Positions 2,204 through 34,352 of a stretch of 36,194 nt of DNA are shown in pieces. The position numbers were made by a program, and so were the translations under genes. Every line of letters begins with the position of its first letter. The first letter of the stretch is position 1. Source of the stretch: a virus. The DNA lies in IMG/VR virus record IMGVR_UViG_3300046000_000043, positions 1 through 36,194 of that record, one strand, 5' to 3'. Under the pieces are notes generated by a model. It worked only from the letters and a program-made list of their open reading frames with translations, was not told where the DNA came from and did no database searches.

Positions 2204-2715
2204 TTCAATCCCCAAAAATATAGGTCTTTTGCACTAAGGCACTGGCCAAATTTGTATTGTTTGAAGAGAGGCTTGAAGTCATTGAAATCTTCCTCCCTCA
2301 AATTTTGGTAGTAATCGTTTGTAAATGGCGCGTCTACCGGTGATGCCCGACTCGTGCCATGCTCTGGTCTGCCTATTGTGGCACAGGAGAAAATCACCAG
2401 ACCACCATCCCGCGCCAAGTCAATCATCTTTTGAAACGTCTTTTCCCAGTGCTTGTCATGCTCAAAGCACTCACATGAGATCACCACATCAAACATCCCG
2501 TCTGGGTATGGCAGCTCATGGCCGGTGTAGACAATGTCCACCCCTGGGCCTTCGCCCAAGTCACAGCCAATGTATTTGTCTGGATTCTCAAAAAACTGCC
2601 TGACGCTGCCGTTGATGTTCAAAGAGCCAACTTCCAAGACCTTGGTCTGGCTGAAGTATTCTGGGAATTGGTCTTTGACACTGGCCACAAAACTAAGTTG
2701 CTGCTGGTGACTCAT
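2200..2715 (-). CDS. Class I SAM-dependent methyltransferase
   Basis: 171 residues. A Rossmann-type methyltransferase core is visible: motif I as VLEVGSLNINGSV (about 26-38), an acidic residue after beta-2 in YIGCDLGEGPG (about 48-58), and the post-motif segment FDVVISCECFEHDKHW (about 74-89), typical of Methyltransf_11-like enzymes. The substrate cannot be read from sequence. Its neighbours are two glycosyltransferases upstream and the portal downstream, so a role in modifying a sugar, a nucleoside or a surface molecule is plausible but inferred. The first glycine of motif I is followed by Ser-Leu-Asn rather than the usual Gly-x-Gly, a common variant in small phage methyltransferases. It lies 32 bases after the glycosyltransferase stop and overlaps the portal start. 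Confidence 0.75.
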   Translation of the reverse strand: MSHQQQLSFVASVKDQFPEYFSQTKVLEVGSLNINGSVRQFFENPDKYIGCDLGEGPGVDIVYTGHELPYPDGMFDVVISCECFEHDKHWEKTFQKMIDLARDGGLVIFSCATIGRPEHGTSRASPVDAPFTNDYYQNLREEDFNDFKPLFKQYKFGQCLSAKDLYFWGLK

Positions 2716-2747
2716 GCAAAAATCCTTATATATGGCTCAAATCAATT

Positions 2748-3356
2748 TTAATTGTGAACAAACAAAATATGCGGTAGTTTTACCACCAAAATATTTTGAT
2801 CATCTAGCAAGATATCTTCAAAATAGCTTGCATCTCCAGCATAGCCTTTGTCTCGAAATCCAACTTTTTTAGCTCTGTCTGTCTTCACAATTGCTGCACT
2901 TATATCAATTGAATTGCGCCTATAACTTGTTTCAAAGTAAGAATAAGGCGGCAAATCTCTACCGCCAGGCCGGTTGTGGGAATGCACCATGTCAAACAAA
3001 ATGACATCAGGCTGCCCAGTGGCCACGTTCAAAATCTCTACCGCCCTGGGGATAAAGTAATTATCCGCATTGGTCAGCAGCAAATAATCGCCCGTGGCCT
3101 GCTCAATCCCAATCTGCCTCAAAGAATGCCCGTAGTCGTTGAATCTAGACTCTGTGCAAAAATACTTGATTTTCTCTGGCATCTGCTTGGCCAGTGGCCG
3201 CATTGCCTGCTCAAACTCGGTGCTTGGCCCATCGTGAATGACTGTAAGTCGCCAGTTGTCTGCGCTCTGATTTATCCAAGACTGGACAAACACCCGCATT
3301 TCATTGGTGCGCTCATAGGCCACCGCGAATACATCAATCAAACCATGCCTTCGCAT
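2748..3356 (-). CDS. Family 2-like glycosyltransferase (GT-A fold)
   Basis: 202 residues from the chosen ATG at 3356. The open frame extends 39 codons further upstream, but that part lies inside the preceding gene and has no family features. The N-terminus IDVFAVAYERTNEMRVFVQS is the first strand and helix of a GT2 enzyme, followed by LTVIHDGPS (about 36-44). The donor-binding region reads GDYLLLTNADNYFIPRAV, with NAD-N in place of a canonical DxD. A possible acidic catalytic segment is FEDILLDDQN near the C-terminus. It probably transfers a sugar from a nucleotide donor; acceptor unknown. It overlaps the upstream glycosyltransferase by 23 bases, so the two are coupled and may act in sequence. 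Confidence 0.72.
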   Translation of the reverse strand: MRRHGLIDVFAVAYERTNEMRVFVQSWINQSADNWRLTVIHDGPSTEFEQAMRPLAKQMPEKIKYFCTESRFNDYGHSLRQIGIEQATGDYLLLTNADNYFIPRAVEILNVATGQPDVILFDMVHSHNRPGGRDLPPYSYFETSYRRNSIDISAAIVKTDRAKKVGFRDKGYAGDASYFEDILLDDQNILVVKLPHILFVHN

Positions 3357-6571: not shown

Positions 6572-6765
6572 AAACCCCTCACTTGCTTTAAGTTCCGACC
6601 CGTGATCCTATCGGTCCAGCATGATGCACACAACCACCTGGTCGCACTCATCTCAACCCCACCCTCTGGCGGCTTTTTCATGGCGCACTTATTACAAATC
6701 TGTAATTTGTGGCCATGCACGTTTCCATTCAATCTGACTGGGTTATTTACAAAATTACTTTTCAC
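6568..6765 (-). CDS. 65-residue putative zinc-ribbon protein
   Basis: A short frame starting at GTG (6765), overlapping its neighbours by four bases on each side. It contains two CxxC knuckles, CNKC (24-27) and CASC (46-49), separated by 18 residues with a basic and glycine-rich linker, the layout of a small zinc ribbon. Such proteins usually bind nucleic acid or a protein partner. I do not recognise a named family. The overlaps on both sides argue that it is translated, although the ribosome-binding site is weak (GAAG about 14 bases upstream). Confidence 0.5.
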   Translation of the reverse strand: MKSNFVNNPVRLNGNVHGHKLQICNKCAMKKPPEGGVEMSATRWLCASCWTDRITGRNLKQVRGL

Positions 6766-6923
6766 TGGATTTTCTGCACTTCATTATTTTTATGGATTAA
6801 CCATTTATCACCCAATATTCTTAATGCCTTGACATATTGCAATTGATTATGTCTGTTTGTACTACGCGGCACATAATCCACATTGAATAACTGGCGTACC
6901 TTAATAAGCATTTGTGTATTCAT
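6762..6923 (-). CDS. 53-residue hypothetical phage protein
   Basis: Starts MNTQMLIKVRQLFNVDYV from the ATG at 6923, which overlaps the preceding stop as ATGA; a GTGGGA sequence sits about eight bases upstream. The reading frame is open further upstream to 6956, but the overlap start is preferred. The protein is basic, with a likely helix and a RHNQLQYVKALRILGDKW stretch. No family is recognised. It belongs to the chain of small genes between the origin-like region and TerL. Confidence 0.5.
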   Translation of the reverse strand: MNTQMLIKVRQLFNVDYVPRSTNRHNQLQYVKALRILGDKWLIHKNNEVQKIQ

Positions 6924-7084
6924 ATTATTCCCACTATATCGTTGACATTGACCCATGCGTGTAAAACAGTTGTGCCATCTGGACTCATTAAGGTGCAGAA
7001 GACCTTCCCGTCTTTTTCCTCATCAGTGTCGATCACGATCCACTCCTGACCTTTGAGGATCACTGTCGCTAGCTTAGATTTCAT
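6920..7084 (-). CDS. 54-residue hypothetical phage protein
   Basis: From the ATG at 7084, which has a good GGAG ribosome-binding site seven bases upstream. The longer frame to 7123 lacks one. The sequence has alternating hydrophobic residues (LATVILKGQEWIVIDTDEE, then GKVFCTLMSPDG), suggesting a small beta-barrel or SH3-like fold of the kind that wraps text such as 'plasmid stabilisation' or 'host takeover' proteins; function unknown. It is the first gene downstream of the non-coding origin-like region on this strand and probably the first of the short operon leading to TerL. Confidence 0.55.
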   Translation of the reverse strand: MKSKLATVILKGQEWIVIDTDEEKDGKVFCTLMSPDGTTVLHAWVNVNDIVGII

Positions 7085-21356: not shown

Positions 21357-21725
21357 CTAAAGTTCCTTTGCCATTACAGACCATTGTGGACTGTAACCTT
21401 CGTCTTTCAAAAATGTCTTTGCCCAGCCTCTTCGGCCTGCCAAAGTCACCCTGGTGCAACCAACTGATTTGCCCCAGGATTCGATCAATGGTCTCATCCT
21501 TGAGAGTTCATCTAGGTCGCCACCAGCCAGAAAATAATGCAAATTCTTTAGCCTGGGATAGACAATGATCTCTGTCAATACCACCGAGTCCTTGGCTGGC
21601 CACAGCTGTAATCTGTGATCCTCAACCATCTCAGCGACATCGTCAAAATTATGTGTGCCTCCAGAGTATTCTAATGCCGCCTCCACATGATGGCGCAACC
21701 TCTCCAGTTGTTCTTTGTCGCTCAT
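21357..21725 (-). CDS. GNAT-like phage protein between hub and ejection genes
   Basis: 122 residues. The sequence has the strand and helix order of a small N-acetyltransferase: LWPAKDSVVLTEIIVYPRLK (strand region), FLAGGDLDEL, then a GCTRVTLAGRRGWAKTFL segment (about 89-106) at the acetyl-CoA binding position. I recall this family as a widely distributed phage protein next to tail hub genes, unnamed. It is tightly coupled to the hub gene (ATGA overlap). Enzymatic activity is not proven; it may be a structural GNAT fold. Confidence 0.62.
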   Translation of the reverse strand: MSDKEQLERLRHHVEAALEYSGGTHNFDDVAEMVEDHRLQLWPAKDSVVLTEIIVYPRLKNLHYFLAGGDLDELSRMRPLIESWGKSVGCTRVTLAGRRGWAKTFLKDEGYSPQWSVMAKEL

Positions 21726-23200
21726 CGCTTACCAGCTGGCACAGCGTCAAGTCTCATCACGCCAATGCGCCAGTCGGCCAAAGTGTTGCCAGTCACCTTC
21801 ATGTTGACTTGACGGCCAGAAAACCGGACAGAAGTCGGGTTGGCTGCCGTGTATGGTCCAAATGACGATTGTGTGCCTGTCGGGTAATTGCGGGTTTTGA
21901 ATGAAACCACCGCCTCACCCAGCGTCTGCTCGTCTGGGACAACTTGGCGCACAGACATGATATTGTCGCCATTGCCCAATTGGACTGGTCCGGACTCAGC
22001 GTAAAGGCTGGCGCTGTCATAGTTAAAGCCAACCTCATGCTCGTAAATGTAGCCAGTGCTTGAGACCATTAAAGGGTATGTGTAAACACCAGCGTCAACC
22101 CCAGCAGTTCGCCCCAATGTGCCAATGTTCCAGTGGTTTTCGCGGTAGTTAAAAGTGACATAAGAGTCATTCTCATTGCTGCCACTTGATGGATAGAACC
22201 ACCAGATTTCACCAAACTTGCTGACATGGACCGCATAAATCTTAGATGCCTGGGCAAAGTTGATATTGGCAAAAATGTAATCTGACACATCACTTGGCAG
22301 TGGTTTGACATAGCCGTCATATATCCAAAAGCCAGAATTGCTCATCCAAATGGCTGCCGTGTCAATGGCCGCCACAGCCTGGGCCGAAATGAGGCCGCAG
22401 CCGCTTGCAGCCTTCTCAAAGCCATAAACAAATGGAGCGCCAACATACTGGGCCGTGTGGACATCCACATCTGTAAACAGTAGGTTGACACCCTTGACCC
22501 GCTTGCCAGCGATCAGTGTGCCAGGGCTTGCCAAGTCATAGTCGCCTGCCAGATTGTCGCCTGCTGGTGTCCACTGGGTATTGTTCTCTTGGTCGCACCA
22601 CTGCACTTTGCGTGGGTTTCCACCAGCGCCAAGGGCAAAGATAATGCGCTCTTGGGTGACTAAAACCGCCTTGTTGTTGACTGGTGCATTGGTAATTGCC
22701 GCTGCCAGCGTAGGCGTGGCAAAGCCCAATTGCCACTCGTAAATCTTGCCATCGGTGCTGGAGCAAGCAATCAAATACTCGCCCCATGTATCAAGTGACC
22801 AAGTGGTGGCTGCAATGGGTGTTCCAGTGTCTGGCCGTGCCACGCCATAGGCCAATGTGCCATAAGTGCTGTAACCATAGCCTGTCAGCACTGTGGAGCT
22901 GGCATAGCCACTTGTGAAGCCTGTGGGCGTGATGTCTTTGAGTGTTCCAGCCTCATTCATGGCGTAGAGCTTGGAATGCGTTCCAGCGCCAATGTATCGG
23001 TTGCCACTGTTATCGCGCCAAGTAATGATGCCTCGGCATGAGCCTGTCATCTGTGAGCTTGACCTGGTGCGCCATCCATTGATGGGGCGCAGTGTCCCTT
23101 CATACCAGCGAACTAGGTTTGCGTCATACCAGCGGCCTGCTGCCTGGTATTCAGTACCATTTCGGAAAACACCTGGGGGTAGCTTTAAAGGTATGTACAT
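21722..23200 (-). CDS. Tail hub / packaged-DNA stabilisation protein (P22 gp10-like)
   Basis: 492 residues. P22 gp10 and relatives sit below the portal-adaptor ring, seal the packaged DNA and carry the tail needle and spikes. The N-terminus MYIPLKLPPGVFRNGTEYQA followed by GRWYDANLVRWYEG is typical of this protein group, and the remainder reads as many short beta strands with Trp, Gly and Asn turns (QWCDQENNTQWTP, GFWIYDGYVKPLP, FGEIWWFYPSSG) fitting a beta-propeller-like body. The length fits the family. It lies between a beta-rich fibre-like protein and the ejection genes, as expected in the P22-type layout. Confidence 0.75.
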   Translation of the reverse strand: MYIPLKLPPGVFRNGTEYQAAGRWYDANLVRWYEGTLRPINGWRTRSSSQMTGSCRGIITWRDNSGNRYIGAGTHSKLYAMNEAGTLKDITPTGFTSGYASSTVLTGYGYSTYGTLAYGVARPDTGTPIAATTWSLDTWGEYLIACSSTDGKIYEWQLGFATPTLAAAITNAPVNNKAVLVTQERIIFALGAGGNPRKVQWCDQENNTQWTPAGDNLAGDYDLASPGTLIAGKRVKGVNLLFTDVDVHTAQYVGAPFVYGFEKAASGCGLISAQAVAAIDTAAIWMSNSGFWIYDGYVKPLPSDVSDYIFANINFAQASKIYAVHVSKFGEIWWFYPSSGSNENDSYVTFNYRENHWNIGTLGRTAGVDAGVYTYPLMVSSTGYIYEHEVGFNYDSASLYAESGPVQLGNGDNIMSVRQVVPDEQTLGEAVVSFKTRNYPTGTQSSFGPYTAANPTSVRFSGRQVNMKVTGNTLADWRIGVMRLDAVPAGKR

Positions 23201-28196: not shown

Positions 28197-28982
28197 TTAA
28201 ACACCCATTTGTTTTCTTATCTTGGTTGCTGAAATGGCGTGTGTAGCATCATCAAAAGACTCTTGTTCAATCTTGTATCCAACATCACGCCCATAGGTGA
28301 TGTTAACAATATTTGGGACAAGTTGTATTTCATACTGACCTTGATACAAAGGGTCTAAATCACGCTTGATAAAGTCTTTGACTTGATTGGCCGCAAACGG
28401 GTTTGAGCCGTTCCAGCCCTGGCAGTCTCTGATCTGGATGACCACCTGACCCGTCTTGGCCAATGCCCTCTCAAACAGTTTTCGATGGCCTTCATGCCAA
28501 GGTTGCCATCTGCCAAGCATTTGCACAGTCTCTTTCTGCCAATCAAAAACGGGGCGCTGGCGGTCATCCAAGATGTGAGCTGCAATGAATTCGCCCCACT
28601 TCTCAGCCTTTTGCTCAGTAATCCTAAAGTCATACTGCTCTGGGGCTACAAACACCTTGTTGGTGTCTTCAAAGCGGCCTTGGTTGATGGTATCAACCCA
28701 GACAGTCCAATCTGCTTTAAAGTTGTTTCGCATCTCAACCAAAGGGGCAACAAAGTCGCAGATCACATAATCCACATCGTAGCTGTCAGCAAGATCACGC
28801 ATCCGCAAACTTTGGCGAATACGACCTTCATGCGAGAAATCCCAATCGTTATATTTCTTACGCACATCATCAGCGTTCAGCCACATAACTGTTTTATGGT
28901 TGTTTTGCAGATGCTCAAGAACGTGCTGTGCAAGGTAAGTTTTACCAGCACCAGGCAAGCCCATGATTAAGATTCTTTTCAT
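28197..28982 (-). CDS. Bifunctional kinase (APS-kinase-like) and nucleotidyltransferase fusion
   Basis: 261 residues from ATG 28982; the open frame extends to 29099 but overlaps the upstream gene and has no RBS there. N-terminal P-loop domain: GLPGAGKT (8-15), WLNADDVRKKYND (about 34-46) and ICDFVAPLVEMRN (about 74-86), the order seen in adenylylsulfate kinases. C-terminal domain: GRWQPWHEGH (157-166; HxGH catalytic motif), then YGRDVGY (230-236) and ISATKIR (250-256), the ISxTxxR motif of cytidylyltransferase-like nucleotidyltransferases. If truly like PAPS synthase it would make PAPS for the neighbouring sulfotransferase, but NadR-like (NMN) activity is the alternative. Overlaps the sulfotransferase as ATGA. 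Confidence 0.75.
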   Translation of the reverse strand: MKRILIMGLPGAGKTYLAQHVLEHLQNNHKTVMWLNADDVRKKYNDWDFSHEGRIRQSLRMRDLADSYDVDYVICDFVAPLVEMRNNFKADWTVWVDTINQGRFEDTNKVFVAPEQYDFRITEQKAEKWGEFIAAHILDDRQRPVFDWQKETVQMLGRWQPWHEGHRKLFERALAKTGQVVIQIRDCQGWNGSNPFAANQVKDFIKRDLDPLYQGQYEIQLVPNIVNITYGRDVGYKIEQESFDDATHAISATKIRKQMGV

Positions 28983-29800
28983 CCCTTGACCTTGTAAAGT
29001 TGTTTGATTGCAAACTCTGGTGCGGGTGTGCGCCAAAACTCTTTGCCAGAATACTTCTCCCAAACTGATTTGGGCAAGATTGATGGACGTTCTTGCCATG
29101 TTACTTCTTTGCGTACTGTATGAAGACTCTTCATGTTTAAGGCTTTGTCATAGACTTCGTTCTCATACTCAACATTCTTGAAGTCATGGTCAAAATAAGG
29201 CTTGCCAATAAAGCCATAAATCTCACGCATTACGCTCTCAGGTTGTTTGCATAGAGATTCATATTCCACCAACATAATCATGTCGGGGTTTAACAGTAAA
29301 CCTTCTTCTAAGAAGTAATAAGGCTTGACTACTTGGCCTTCCTTCTTCACATCCATTAGGGCATCGCACCTTGTGGTGACTGTTTGCCTAGCTTCATCGT
29401 CTGTTAGTGCCGCACCATACAAAGAGTTCTTGGCAGCAATACGCTCAAAGCTATCAAGTATCCAAGGCAAATCACGCACACAGCAAATGATTTTGGTCTG
29501 TGGGTAAAGCTCTTTCAATAGAGATGTTTTAGAAGTCCAACGTCTGCTAGTGTCAAATACTGTATTTGGCTTAACTTCTTTGTAGTAAGCATTAAATAAA
29601 TCTTTAAGTATTTGCTTGCGTCTGTCTTCATCAATCAAATGGTTATTTTCGTTTTCTGTAATCACATTGATGGTTGAGATCACCAAACTTTGCATGGGCG
29701 AAGATATATCCGCATGGAACTCAGGGTTCTGACGCAAGATGGCCGAGAGCAGGGTTGAACCTGACCTTGGCAAACCTGAGATAAAGAAAAACTCTTTCAT
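28979..29800 (-). CDS. Sulfotransferase
   Basis: 273 residues. PAPS-dependent sulfotransferase fold: the 5'-phosphosulfate loop FISGLPRSGSTLLSAIL (about 6-22) and the 3'-phosphate-binding region CCVRDLPWILDSFERI (about 106-121) are visible. Its C-terminal half contains a long helical region ending QLYKVKG. This enzyme should transfer sulfate from PAPS to a sugar, lipid or protein acceptor; the acceptor is unknown. It is coupled (ATGA) to the downstream kinase-nucleotidyltransferase and to the upstream fibre-associated protein. Sulfotransferases are uncommon in phages apart from environmental ones and here could modify the virion or a host surface component. Confidence 0.82.
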   Translation of the reverse strand: MKEFFFISGLPRSGSTLLSAILRQNPEFHADISSPMQSLVISTINVITENENNHLIDEDRRKQILKDLFNAYYKEVKPNTVFDTSRRWTSKTSLLKELYPQTKIICCVRDLPWILDSFERIAAKNSLYGAALTDDEARQTVTTRCDALMDVKKEGQVVKPYYFLEEGLLLNPDMIMLVEYESLCKQPESVMREIYGFIGKPYFDHDFKNVEYENEVYDKALNMKSLHTVRKEVTWQERPSILPKSVWEKYSGKEFWRTPAPEFAIKQLYKVKG

Positions 29801-31858: not shown

Positions 31859-32671
31859 TCATGCGGCAATTTGCCATGTTTCACTATTATCAGCAATTGC
31901 AGTCCAAGTTTCACTTGAATCACTAATTGCATTCCATGTTTCTGACTGGTCAGAGATCGGTGTCCAAGTTTCTGAATTATCAGATATCCCAGACCAGCTC
32001 TCTGACGTGTCACTTTCTGCTTCCCATTTTAGTCTTGCATTGACCGCCATGGATGATGTTTCTGTGAATGCAATTGCACCAGGCTGCCTGCGCTGCGCAT
32101 TTACCACCATGACGCTTGTGCCAGTCACAGCAAAGCCAGAATTGCCAATGATGCTGGTGGACACTGTCAGTGTCGATGTGTCAGTGATGGTGGCCGCGCC
32201 AATGGCGTATCTTAGACCAGCCACCGCCATGGTGCTAGTGTCGCTGATGGCGGCTGCGCCCACTGCATAGCGCACCCCTGCCACGGCCATGGTGCTGGTG
32301 TCGCTGATTGTGGCTGATGCAGTTGTGAGCCTATTGGCCGCCACGGCCATGGTGCTTGTGCCGGTAATGGCCACCGCGCCATCAAAGATTTCATTGGCCT
32401 GCACAGACATTGTGCTGGTGGATGTGATTGCTATGGCAGCAGACACATATCTGATGGCAGCCACCGCCATGGTGGACTGGTCAAAAATCTCAAATTGCGC
32501 GTTGGAAACAGTTGAACCAGCCACCACCATGGTGCTGGTGTCTGTAATGATTACTTGAGGCTCAAACGTGCCTCTGGAGTAGTTGCCCTTGCCGTAGGAG
32601 CCGTAGCCGTAGCCTACCCTCGGATCAGAGTATTGGCCAACACCAAAATTCCCCGATCCATAGGCTGCCAT
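31859..32671 (-). CDS. Repeat protein with 21-residue and 10-residue repeats, putative fibre
   Basis: 270 residues. The N-terminus is Gly/Tyr-rich (GSGNFGVGQYSDPRVGYGYG). From about 44 to 230 a 21-residue unit recurs nine times around the core (S/D)TSTMAVA, suitable for a beta-helix or beta-solenoid shaft. The last 50 residues hold five units of 10 residues built on ISD-SETW with a Trp in each. The DNA carries matching 63-base repeats (about 32040-32540). Position among fibre genes suggests a virion fibre or tape-like protein; no enzyme motif. The two repeats may be separate structural modules. Confidence 0.7.
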   Translation of the reverse strand: MAAYGSGNFGVGQYSDPRVGYGYGSYGKGNYSRGTFEPQVIITDTSTMVVAGSTVSNAQFEIFDQSTMAVAAIRYVSAAIAITSTSTMSVQANEIFDGAVAITGTSTMAVAANRLTTASATISDTSTMAVAGVRYAVGAAAISDTSTMAVAGLRYAIGAATITDTSTLTVSTSIIGNSGFAVTGTSVMVVNAQRRQPGAIAFTETSSMAVNARLKWEAESDTSESWSGISDNSETWTPISDQSETWNAISDSSETWTAIADNSETWQIAA

Positions 32672-33078: not shown

Positions 33079-33702
33079 TTATCCAAAAGTCTTTGCACGG
33101 GTCAACAATGCACCACCAGAAGATGCACCGCGATCATCGGCAGTTTGCGCGTCATTTAAGGCTCGCTCATAGAGTGTTGCCCATGTCTGGATTCTCGCAT
33201 CATCTTGCAAGTATGGCGCAGCCTGGAGCAATGCGCCATACAGATAAATGTCGGGGCTTGAGGCTAAAAGCCAATTGCTTGTATTGGCATTTGATAACTT
33301 TGCCAACTTTGCGTAATAGGTCAGCTCAGTTGTGTAATTTGCGTCTGGTGTTGGGACAATGCGAAACTGGCCACCAACAATGCCAAAAAATTTGGGTTTG
33401 CCGCTGGCCGTGTACTTGGTCATCTCATTGTCCAAGGCATCAATGCTCAAGAATGATAATGGTGTCTGGGGGTTTGTGCTTGTGAGTTTGAGGGATTTAA
33501 CCTCCAAAAAGTCACTTGGCACTGCGCCATATTGCGCATCAAAAGACGCATTGGCCCTGACGATCATCTGCCTGGTGCGCAGTGTTCGCTCCACTTGTGC
33601 CTCGGCCAGAGAGATAAAGTCAGGAATGACAGAAGTCAGGTCCGACCGATTCAGCCAGTCACCAATAGATGTCTTTAGTTCCGCGTATGTAGTCAGTGCC
33701 AT
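33079..33702 (-). CDS. Head-tail adaptor / neck protein (P22 gp4-like)
   Basis: 207 residues from ATG 33702, TAATG-coupled to the upstream glycosyltransferase stop. The extension to 33741 lies in that gene. The N-terminus ALTTYAELKTSIGDWLNRSD, then LAEAQVERTLRTRQMIVRAN, match the gp4/adaptor-type head-to-tail proteins of podoviruses as I recall them: a helical N-terminal half with later beta strands (QFRIVPTPDANYTTELTYYA, about 125-144). This protein would form the ring between portal and tail hub. Placement near fibre genes fits a P22-like genome. Confidence 0.75.
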   Translation of the reverse strand: MALTTYAELKTSIGDWLNRSDLTSVIPDFISLAEAQVERTLRTRQMIVRANASFDAQYGAVPSDFLEVKSLKLTSTNPQTPLSFLSIDALDNEMTKYTASGKPKFFGIVGGQFRIVPTPDANYTTELTYYAKLAKLSNANTSNWLLASSPDIYLYGALLQAAPYLQDDARIQTWATLYERALNDAQTADDRGASSGGALLTRAKTFG

Positions 33703-34352
33703 TATTGGGCCTCTTTTTCCATCTCTTCTTTCACAATCCAAGTGTGTTCATGGCGAAACTCAAATGTGCCAATGTGGCCAATTTCCTTTGAGACATCATG
33801 GTCGATGTAGACCTTGTAACCTAGCTCTTGCGCTTTCTTACAAAAGAACACATCTTCACCCATGTAGCCTCTGGTGGTCTGCCATGGCATATCAAACCAT
33901 GGCTCACTCATGCCCTCAAACACCTCGCGCTTGATCAGCATTATGCCCGTTCCAATGCTTCCCACCTCTTCAATTCCAGTCGATTCTGGCATGGTGTAGA
34001 CCGCCTGGCGCTTGCCGTTCTCGTCATAGTTCTGGGCAGTTGGTCCAGTGGGCATTCTGCGCCTGGCACAGTTGGCAGCCACAATTTCTTTGTCGTGCTT
34101 CAAGAGCCGCTGGACCATGTCTTGTGGAAAGGTCATGTCCGAGTCAATGAAAAGGATATGGGTGCAGCCTTCGGCCATGGCATCCAAGCAAAGATCAGCT
34201 CTTTGGTTTTGAATGATTGTGCCTTGCATCAATTTCAAACTGATAGCGTCTTCAGTGTTGAGTGTGTGAAAGGCAACCATATTCACCATGCAATAGGTGT
34301 AATTTGTGTGGACCTGATCACGGGCCGGTGTGCAGACTGCAATGTAATTCAT
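33702..34352 (-). CDS. Family 2-like glycosyltransferase
   Basis: 216 residues. The N-terminus MNYIAVCTPARDQVHTNYTY is a GT-A first strand and helix; the donor-binding DxD is in FIDSDMTFPQDMV (about 68-80, Asp70-Ser-Asp72). Later elements are GSIGTGIMLIKREVFEGMSE and YMGEDVFFCKKAQELGYKVY, where GED-F contains a likely catalytic acid. This is the third glycosyltransferase of the genome. It is coupled to the neck-like gene (ATGA) and to the adaptor (TAATG). It may modify a virion protein or a host sugar; the acceptor is unknown. Confidence 0.78.
   Translation of the reverse strand: MNYIAVCTPARDQVHTNYTYCMVNMVAFHTLNTEDAISLKLMQGTIIQNQRADLCLDAMAEGCTHILFIDSDMTFPQDMVQRLLKHDKEIVAANCARRRMPTGPTAQNYDENGKRQAVYTMPESTGIEEVGSIGTGIMLIKREVFEGMSEPWFDMPWQTTRGYMGEDVFFCKKAQELGYKVYIDHDVSKEIGHIGTFEFRHEHTWIVKEEMEKEAQ

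Follow-up and report, generated by a model that had tools for sequence, protein, structure and literature searches.

Among the tail genes of one uncultured virus lies a small protein built from two different kinds of repeat, which raises the question of what each kind does and what, if anything, it binds. The window analysed here is the whole virus record of 36,194 bases (IMG/VR record IMGVR_UViG_3300046000_000043), and the protein in question is P0001. A sequence-only reading had described it as a fibre whose repeat arrays might change in copy number, thereby tuning its length or valency, and whose Trp-containing decamers might form a tip for a host ligand. The repeats are real and were slightly misdescribed. 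The best-supported reading of their function, to which we give about even odds (roughly 0.5), is that the C-terminal row of tryptophans would serve as a docking strip for the phage’s own fibre, acting much like the fibre dock of phage SU10; we infer the docking from sequence patterns and from this analogy.

P0001 occupies positions 31859–32671, as had been stated, on the minus strand. It encodes 270 amino acids, has relatives at 81 loci and shows a pN/pS of 0.34 (46 relatives). Three parts can be told apart in it. Residues 1–38 (32558–32671, minus strand) form a Gly/Tyr module, overlooked in the sequence-only reading, that may be the virion-side anchor. Residues 42–215 (32027–32548, minus strand) make up nine units of the (S/D)TSTM type, a putative beta-solenoid arm. 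Residues 216–270 (31862–32026, minus strand) carry a ladder of tryptophans at positions 216, 226, 236, 246, 256 and 266.

The earlier count of nine arm units stands, whereas their period is 20 residues and 60 bp rather than 21 residues and 63 bases. Each of the eight intervals between units measures exactly 20 residues. Self-identity of the protein drops from 0.45 at a lag of 20 to 0.10 at a lag of 21, that of the DNA is 0.51 for a 60-nt shift and 0.30 for a 63-nt shift, and the direct repeats found under the arm by a separate search also lie 60 nt apart. The five SETW/SESW decamers had been counted correctly and follow an exact 10-residue spacing; one further tryptophan (LKW, residue 216) lies 10 residues upstream of the first decamer Trp, making a ladder of six. 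Neither periodicity, of 20 or of 10 residues, was matched in 2000 composition shuffles. These periodicities, together with the family matches of the neighbourhood, support the view that two distinct repeat modules share one tail protein. At the DNA level, the 60-nt units are 38–77% identical to each other and are therefore old. Tandem Repeats Finder (score 40) picked up the 30-nt decamer stretch alone, since the 60-nt units are too diverged for it to see.

Repeat number is nearly constant among close relatives. An IMG/VR scan gave 193 relatives, of which the best 80 were used, and 72 of these are complete homologues with the same N-terminal type as P0001. Within this set, 62 proteins have 270 residues and six Trp, eight have 253 residues and six Trp (with an N-terminus 17 residues shorter), and two whole-unit variants, L034 and L068, have four Trp, one of them with 250 residues and the other with 233. 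In all 72, the stretch ahead of the first Trp is as long as nine 20-mers require, and serine occupies nine of nine expected arm places in 61 and eight of nine in 11. Mean identity to P0001 (66 relatives, again from the best 80 of 193) is 0.967 for residues 1–38, 0.755 for the arm and 0.878 for the ladder, with pN/pS values (46 relatives) of 0.05, 0.39 and 0.28; conserved ends flanking a less conserved arm are a pattern that we count in favour of docking. Units resemble each other more at the same position than at different positions, both for the 20-mers (0.58 vs 0.39) and for the decamers (0.83 vs 0.59). In 64 of 272 unit comparisons the clearly better match lies at another position, and some exchange between units may occur.

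Among distant relatives, repeat number varies. Two DNA-pattern scans address this range. The first, for at least four [ST]W at 30-nt spacing (at least 120 rows), gave a C-terminal ladder in 47 frames among the matches listed, with six Trp in each. The second required at least three [ST]W followed by four residues and a stop; among the matches listed, 215 ladders remained after filtering, with six aromatic rungs in 170, four in 39, five in none and another number in six, and 190 of the 215 end four residues past the last Trp. Both scans are blind to ladders of two or three Trp. A strict rule of even rung numbers (four or six), drawn from them, was dropped because a fetch based on fibre anchors (best 80 of 598 and best 80 of 577, described below) gave 15 three-Trp ladders. 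Across phages, the matches listed contain ladders of 2, 3, 4 or 6 rungs; no five-rung ladder occurs among those listed from the DNA scans or the anchor fetch when a first-place Tyr is counted as a rung, as in L228 and L237 (five Trp plus Tyr). Some individual scores differ from the ladders themselves: L464, L466 and L474 were scored as two Trp and are actually Trp-Tyr-Trp-Trp, while L084, L166 and L178 scored 8, 7 and 7 rungs because a chance aromatic lengthens a ladder of six or nearly six Trp. L082 carries three Trp, and the ladder calls in L204 and L236 are spurious. In L544 and L546 the ladder is split, with four Trp, an insert of 26–28 residues and then two Trp. Doubtful public names are attached to the ladder proteins of L083 (4681–6207), L084 (5398–6174) and L403 (7767–8483), namely ‘ribonuclease E’, ‘serine-rich adhesin’ and ‘putative E3 ubiquitin-protein ligase HERC6’. 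A DNA-pattern scan of bacterial genome contigs was discarded; its pattern was too loose, and the listed matches looked low-complexity or like chance frames.

The N-terminus and overall length of ladder-bearing proteins vary widely among the matches listed. The best periodicity lag of the arm is 20 in 121 of 172 and 40 in 47 of 172 (among the matches listed), the length before the first Trp steps by about 20 residues inside each N-terminal type, and L186 and L196 encode 73-residue proteins with a ladder and without an arm. From the length steps and the armless proteins, it follows that the arm is adjustable and dispensable, and that the ladder is the constant part. The proposed change in copy number thus holds over long evolutionary distances, with roughly 0–12 arm units as judged by length and with the range of rung numbers given above; the rapid tuning that went with the proposal is not seen in the close homologues.

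Structure prediction covered the whole protein and the ladder alone. The AlphaFold2 model of P0001 (52 sequences) has a mean pLDDT of 56, with strands over residues 39–211 in a 20-residue rhythm. At that pLDDT, the model compares with right-handed beta-helices in the PDB, namely 3lyc (Z 17.9), 9rkv (Z 14.2), HxuA (Z 13.8) and FHA (Z 12.4), and left-handed beta-helices give an rmsd near 11; given the confidence of the model, a right-handed beta-helix arm is a lead only. A fold search with the same model gave six hits to viral proteins at E ≤0.001, every one of them an unnamed or uncharacterised phage protein. Modelled alone as a monomer (47 sequences), the ladder is predicted to be an extended chain without secondary structure (pLDDT 71, pTM 0.17). 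A peptide that takes shape on a partner would look like this, and so would any chain whose folding depends on oligomerisation. Of the two findings that were to tell jointly against the sequence-only reading, constant repeat number in all relatives and predicted disorder, about half is borne out: the number is nearly constant among close relatives and varies among distant ones, and the ladder is predicted as an extended chain whereas the arm is predicted, at low confidence, as beta structure. The ladder has no significant match in Pfam, PHROGs, NCBIfam or the PDB (best over the P0001 ladder: Pfam DUF7495, E 0.41; PDB, E 0.19). Where PHROG matches were placed, in 20 of 55 relatives (those of the other 35 being unplaced), they fall on the arm or the N-terminal part and outside the ladder. 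P0001 is not among the matches to Pfam Bflower_3 (PF21786), for which the relative L159 scores 41 against a cut-off of 34, within its arm; nor does Pfam Fil_haemagg match P0001, with five of 55 relatives reaching E ≤0.1.

The gene neighbourhood gives the repeats a context. On the minus strand, P0001 is preceded, in order, by genes for an SU10-type major capsid protein, a small phrog_3982 protein, a glycosyltransferase-like protein, an SU10-type adaptor (33079–33741; PF24175, E 5.1e-41) and P0003 (32673–33068), a homologue of podophage GP4 fiber I gp80 (PF23140, E 2.9e-39; PDB 8jou) that also matches phrog_240 ‘head protein’. PF23140 does not match P0001. The next gene, P0002 (31161–31850, minus strand), encodes a fibre with a 28-residue N-terminal anchor of what we call class a, and is the proposed docking partner. 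A virion structural protein that is probably the nozzle (21722–23200, minus strand; phrog_3287) is encoded about 9 kb from P0001. Other genes nearby deserve mention in their own right. P0004 (30238–31191), after the fibre gene, has fn3 and Lcl_C domains. The glycosyltransferase-like gene (33702–34352; Anp1, E 1.6e-9) sits between the capsid and adaptor genes. Just past the fibre genes, 28197–29099 and 28979–29800 encode an APS-kinase-like protein (PF01583, E 2.4e-9; its C-terminus weakly resembles a cytidylyltransferase) and an adjoining sulfotransferase (PF13469, E 2.2e-19), a possible pair for sulfate activation and transfer in the tail module. A simple scan of the window found no YxDD reverse-transcriptase motif that would hint at a diversity-generating element for P0004.

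Ladders and fibres keep company well beyond this window. Two classes of fibre anchor were distinguished: class a, as in P0002, and class b (INIAEGCxPxNxNNAIR). Among the matches listed, the gene after the ladder (196 cases) has a class-a anchor in 111, a class-b anchor in 20 and a nozzle-type start in 43; a further 19 have no motif and three meet the contig edge. By eye, the 19 motif-less cases are divergent class-a anchors or nozzle-like starts, in the first or second gene. The 43 contigs with a nozzle-followed ladder, among the matches listed, hold one class-b fibre elsewhere in 19 cases and a class-a fibre in none, and those of at least 28 kb have a class-b fibre in seven of seven. We also examined 24 records. 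Exactly one ladder is present in 23 of them (23–41 kb), accompanied by one class-a anchor in 15, one class-b anchor in seven, both in none and neither in one (G014, from L207); SU10 has no ladder and neither anchor.

The association also appears when the fibres are the starting point. Anchor profiles built from ladder loci were used to fetch the best 80 of 598 class-a and the best 80 of 577 class-b fibres; chosen in this way, they do not sample these fibres at random. A ladder protein ends ≤60 nt upstream in 69 of the 77 assessable class-a fibres (best 80 of 598), the other eight having a ladder about 520 nt upstream (four), none (three) or a spurious one (L480). For class b (best 80 of 577), a ladder protein ends at that distance or nearer in 58 of 74 assessable cases and is absent from that place in 16. 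The 19 anchor contigs without an adjacent ladder carry one elsewhere in five cases and nowhere in 14, which are fragments of 4.6–22 kb. In L411, L504 and L533 the adaptor is the gene directly before the fibre, and in most of the remaining contigs the protein upstream of it is of an internal virion type or otherwise unrelated. The 14 contigs without any ladder, the three with the adaptor in that place and record G014 weigh against docking. On one contig, L037, there are two ladder genes (2364–3173 and 6585–7052), and a separate class-a fibre gene comes after each of them.

The subtype of a ladder goes with the class of its fibre, also when the two genes are not neighbours or the N-terminus is of a different type. 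Among the matches listed, the residue two ahead of Trp in class-a ladders is E in 92%, and the end is AA in 65 of 70 distinct cases. In class-b ladders, that position is N in 52%, D in 23% and E in 22%, with an AA end in 0 of 19; in nozzle-adjacent ladders it is N in 81% and E in 4%, with an AA end in one of 41. Natural chimeras behave likewise: proteins with an MFGF-type N-terminus have a G-type ladder in 16 of 16 class-b cases (among the matches listed) and a K/E-type ladder in three of three class-a cases (L037, L107 and L169, the L107 and L169 proteins being the same). Nine class-a ladders that are G-type ahead of the first Trp count against the docking reading. Moreover, because the samples overlap in ancestry, the co-occurrence is open to another reading, in that it may stem from shared inheritance of the tail module.

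The fibre-class co-occurrence, the upstream adjacency and the subtype matching lead us to interpret the ladder as a dock for the fibre, not as a receptor tip. In the mechanism that we propose, the Gly/Tyr N-terminus probably holds P0001 to the tail, and the nine 20-residue beta coils would form an arm, or spacer, whose length evolution could alter coil by coil. The six-Trp ladder would then be the strip on which the P0002 fibre docks with its N-terminal anchor. The free ladder would be an extended peptide that takes its shape upon meeting its partner, and ladder and fibre anchor would be retained as a matched pair.

Other explanations need to be weighed against this one. The ladder could be an assembly, trimerisation or capping element of P0001 itself, which travels with the fibre genes through joint tail-module inheritance. 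Its fixed C-terminal place (190 of the 215 ladders listed share the same short ending) would suit such a role, as would the resemblance of the modelled arm to fibre and adhesin solenoids, e.g. the phage 7-7-1 tail fibre (Z 14.2). Still, we hold this to be rather unlikely, since ladder subtype tracks fibre class and not N-terminal type, also with the genes apart, and the monomer prediction shows no self-fold of the ladder. The host-ligand tip of the sequence-only reading draws on the facts that exposed Trp repeats are able to bind glycans and that P0001 sits among tail genes. Receptor-binding tips, however, usually vary, whereas here it is the arm that varies and the ladder that stays conserved in very different phages. 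P0004, with its fn3 and Lcl_C domains, appears a better candidate for receptor binding, and the co-occurrence and subtype matching point to the phage’s own fibre as the ligand; a host-ligand tip is thus improbable. Docking is preferred over both self-assembly and a receptor tip, chiefly because ladder subtype and fibre class are paired.

Fast recombinational copy-number change at a contingency locus, tuning length or valency, would leave whole-unit differences such as those of L034 and L068 or of arms about 20 residues apart, and would agree with the 64 unit comparisons that match better at another position. Yet among the close homologues (best 80 of 193), all 72 complete ones have nine 20-mers, as length and register indicate, and 70 have six Trp, and an identity of 38–77% between units is low for frequent slippage, which makes this explanation very unlikely. 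That P0001 decorates the head rather than the tail is suggested by the ‘head protein’ match of the preceding gene; the same gene matches Pfam GP4 fiber I gp80, however, and the neighbours are adaptor, fibre and often nozzle, so that a head location is very unlikely.

Docking, if it is the right reading, may have a wider reach. We propose, tentatively and with a confidence somewhat short of even, that the Trp ladder couples fibres in small podophages of freshwater and the sea, as a widespread module that has so far gone undescribed. It would be an interchangeable plug, with ladder subtypes (K/E, G/N) and anchor classes forming a matched code, on a beta-solenoid arm adjustable by coils. As far as titles and abstract openings in the open-licence PMC literature show, neither the Trp decamer ladder nor its association with a fibre has been described. 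If true, this would name an attachment partner and a rule for the fibres of many uncultured podophages, and the fibre of a metagenomic phage could be predicted from its ladder. It would also separate two roles that had been merged, an adjustable spacer (the 20-mers) and a conserved coupler (the Trp ladder). A concrete ladder/fibre pair in a cultured phage is Venkman gp51 with gp50; another is gp11 with gp12 of Octadecabacter DB virus 2.

How does this compare with known systems? Podophage GP4 fiber I gp80 (PF23140, 8jou) corresponds to the adjoining gene P0003, which is distinct from P0001. The FHA secretion domain (1rwr), HxuA (4i84) and the phage 7-7-1 fibre (9rkv) resemble the predicted 20-mer coil, a likeness that depends on a low-confidence model. 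One parallel to the proposed docking is the fibre dock of SU10. In that phage (PMC9509320), a loop of the nozzle protein gp17 holds the trimeric short tail fibre through Trp839, Trp847 and Trp857, one per fibre subunit. Both systems thus place a row of Trp on a tail protein, with spacings of 8 and 10 in SU10 versus 10 in P0001. However, SU10 has three Trp whereas ladders have 2, 3, 4 or 6, and its loop lies inside the nozzle protein whereas the ladder is the C-terminus of a separate small ORF. Rung numbers are not always multiples of three, so the SU10 geometry is not directly transferable. No sequence homology was seen between dock and ladder, and a profile comparison of class-b anchors with the SU10 fibre N-terminus gave nothing significant (hhalign probability 0.1, against a single gp16 sequence). 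SU10 gp16 and class-b anchors share Ile24, Glu26 and Gly27, a by-eye coincidence of numbering. We do not class the ladder as an SU10 dock, because the number of Trp and the carrier protein differ and homology of the fibre N-terminus was not found. A second parallel is phage JBD30, where the C-terminus of the hub docks in the centre of the receptor-binding-protein trimer (PMC11445458). There the carrier is the hub protein of a long-tailed phage, and what it shares with the proposed docking of P0001 is that one tail protein inserts its C-terminal end into a fibre trimer, at the N-terminal side of the trimer.
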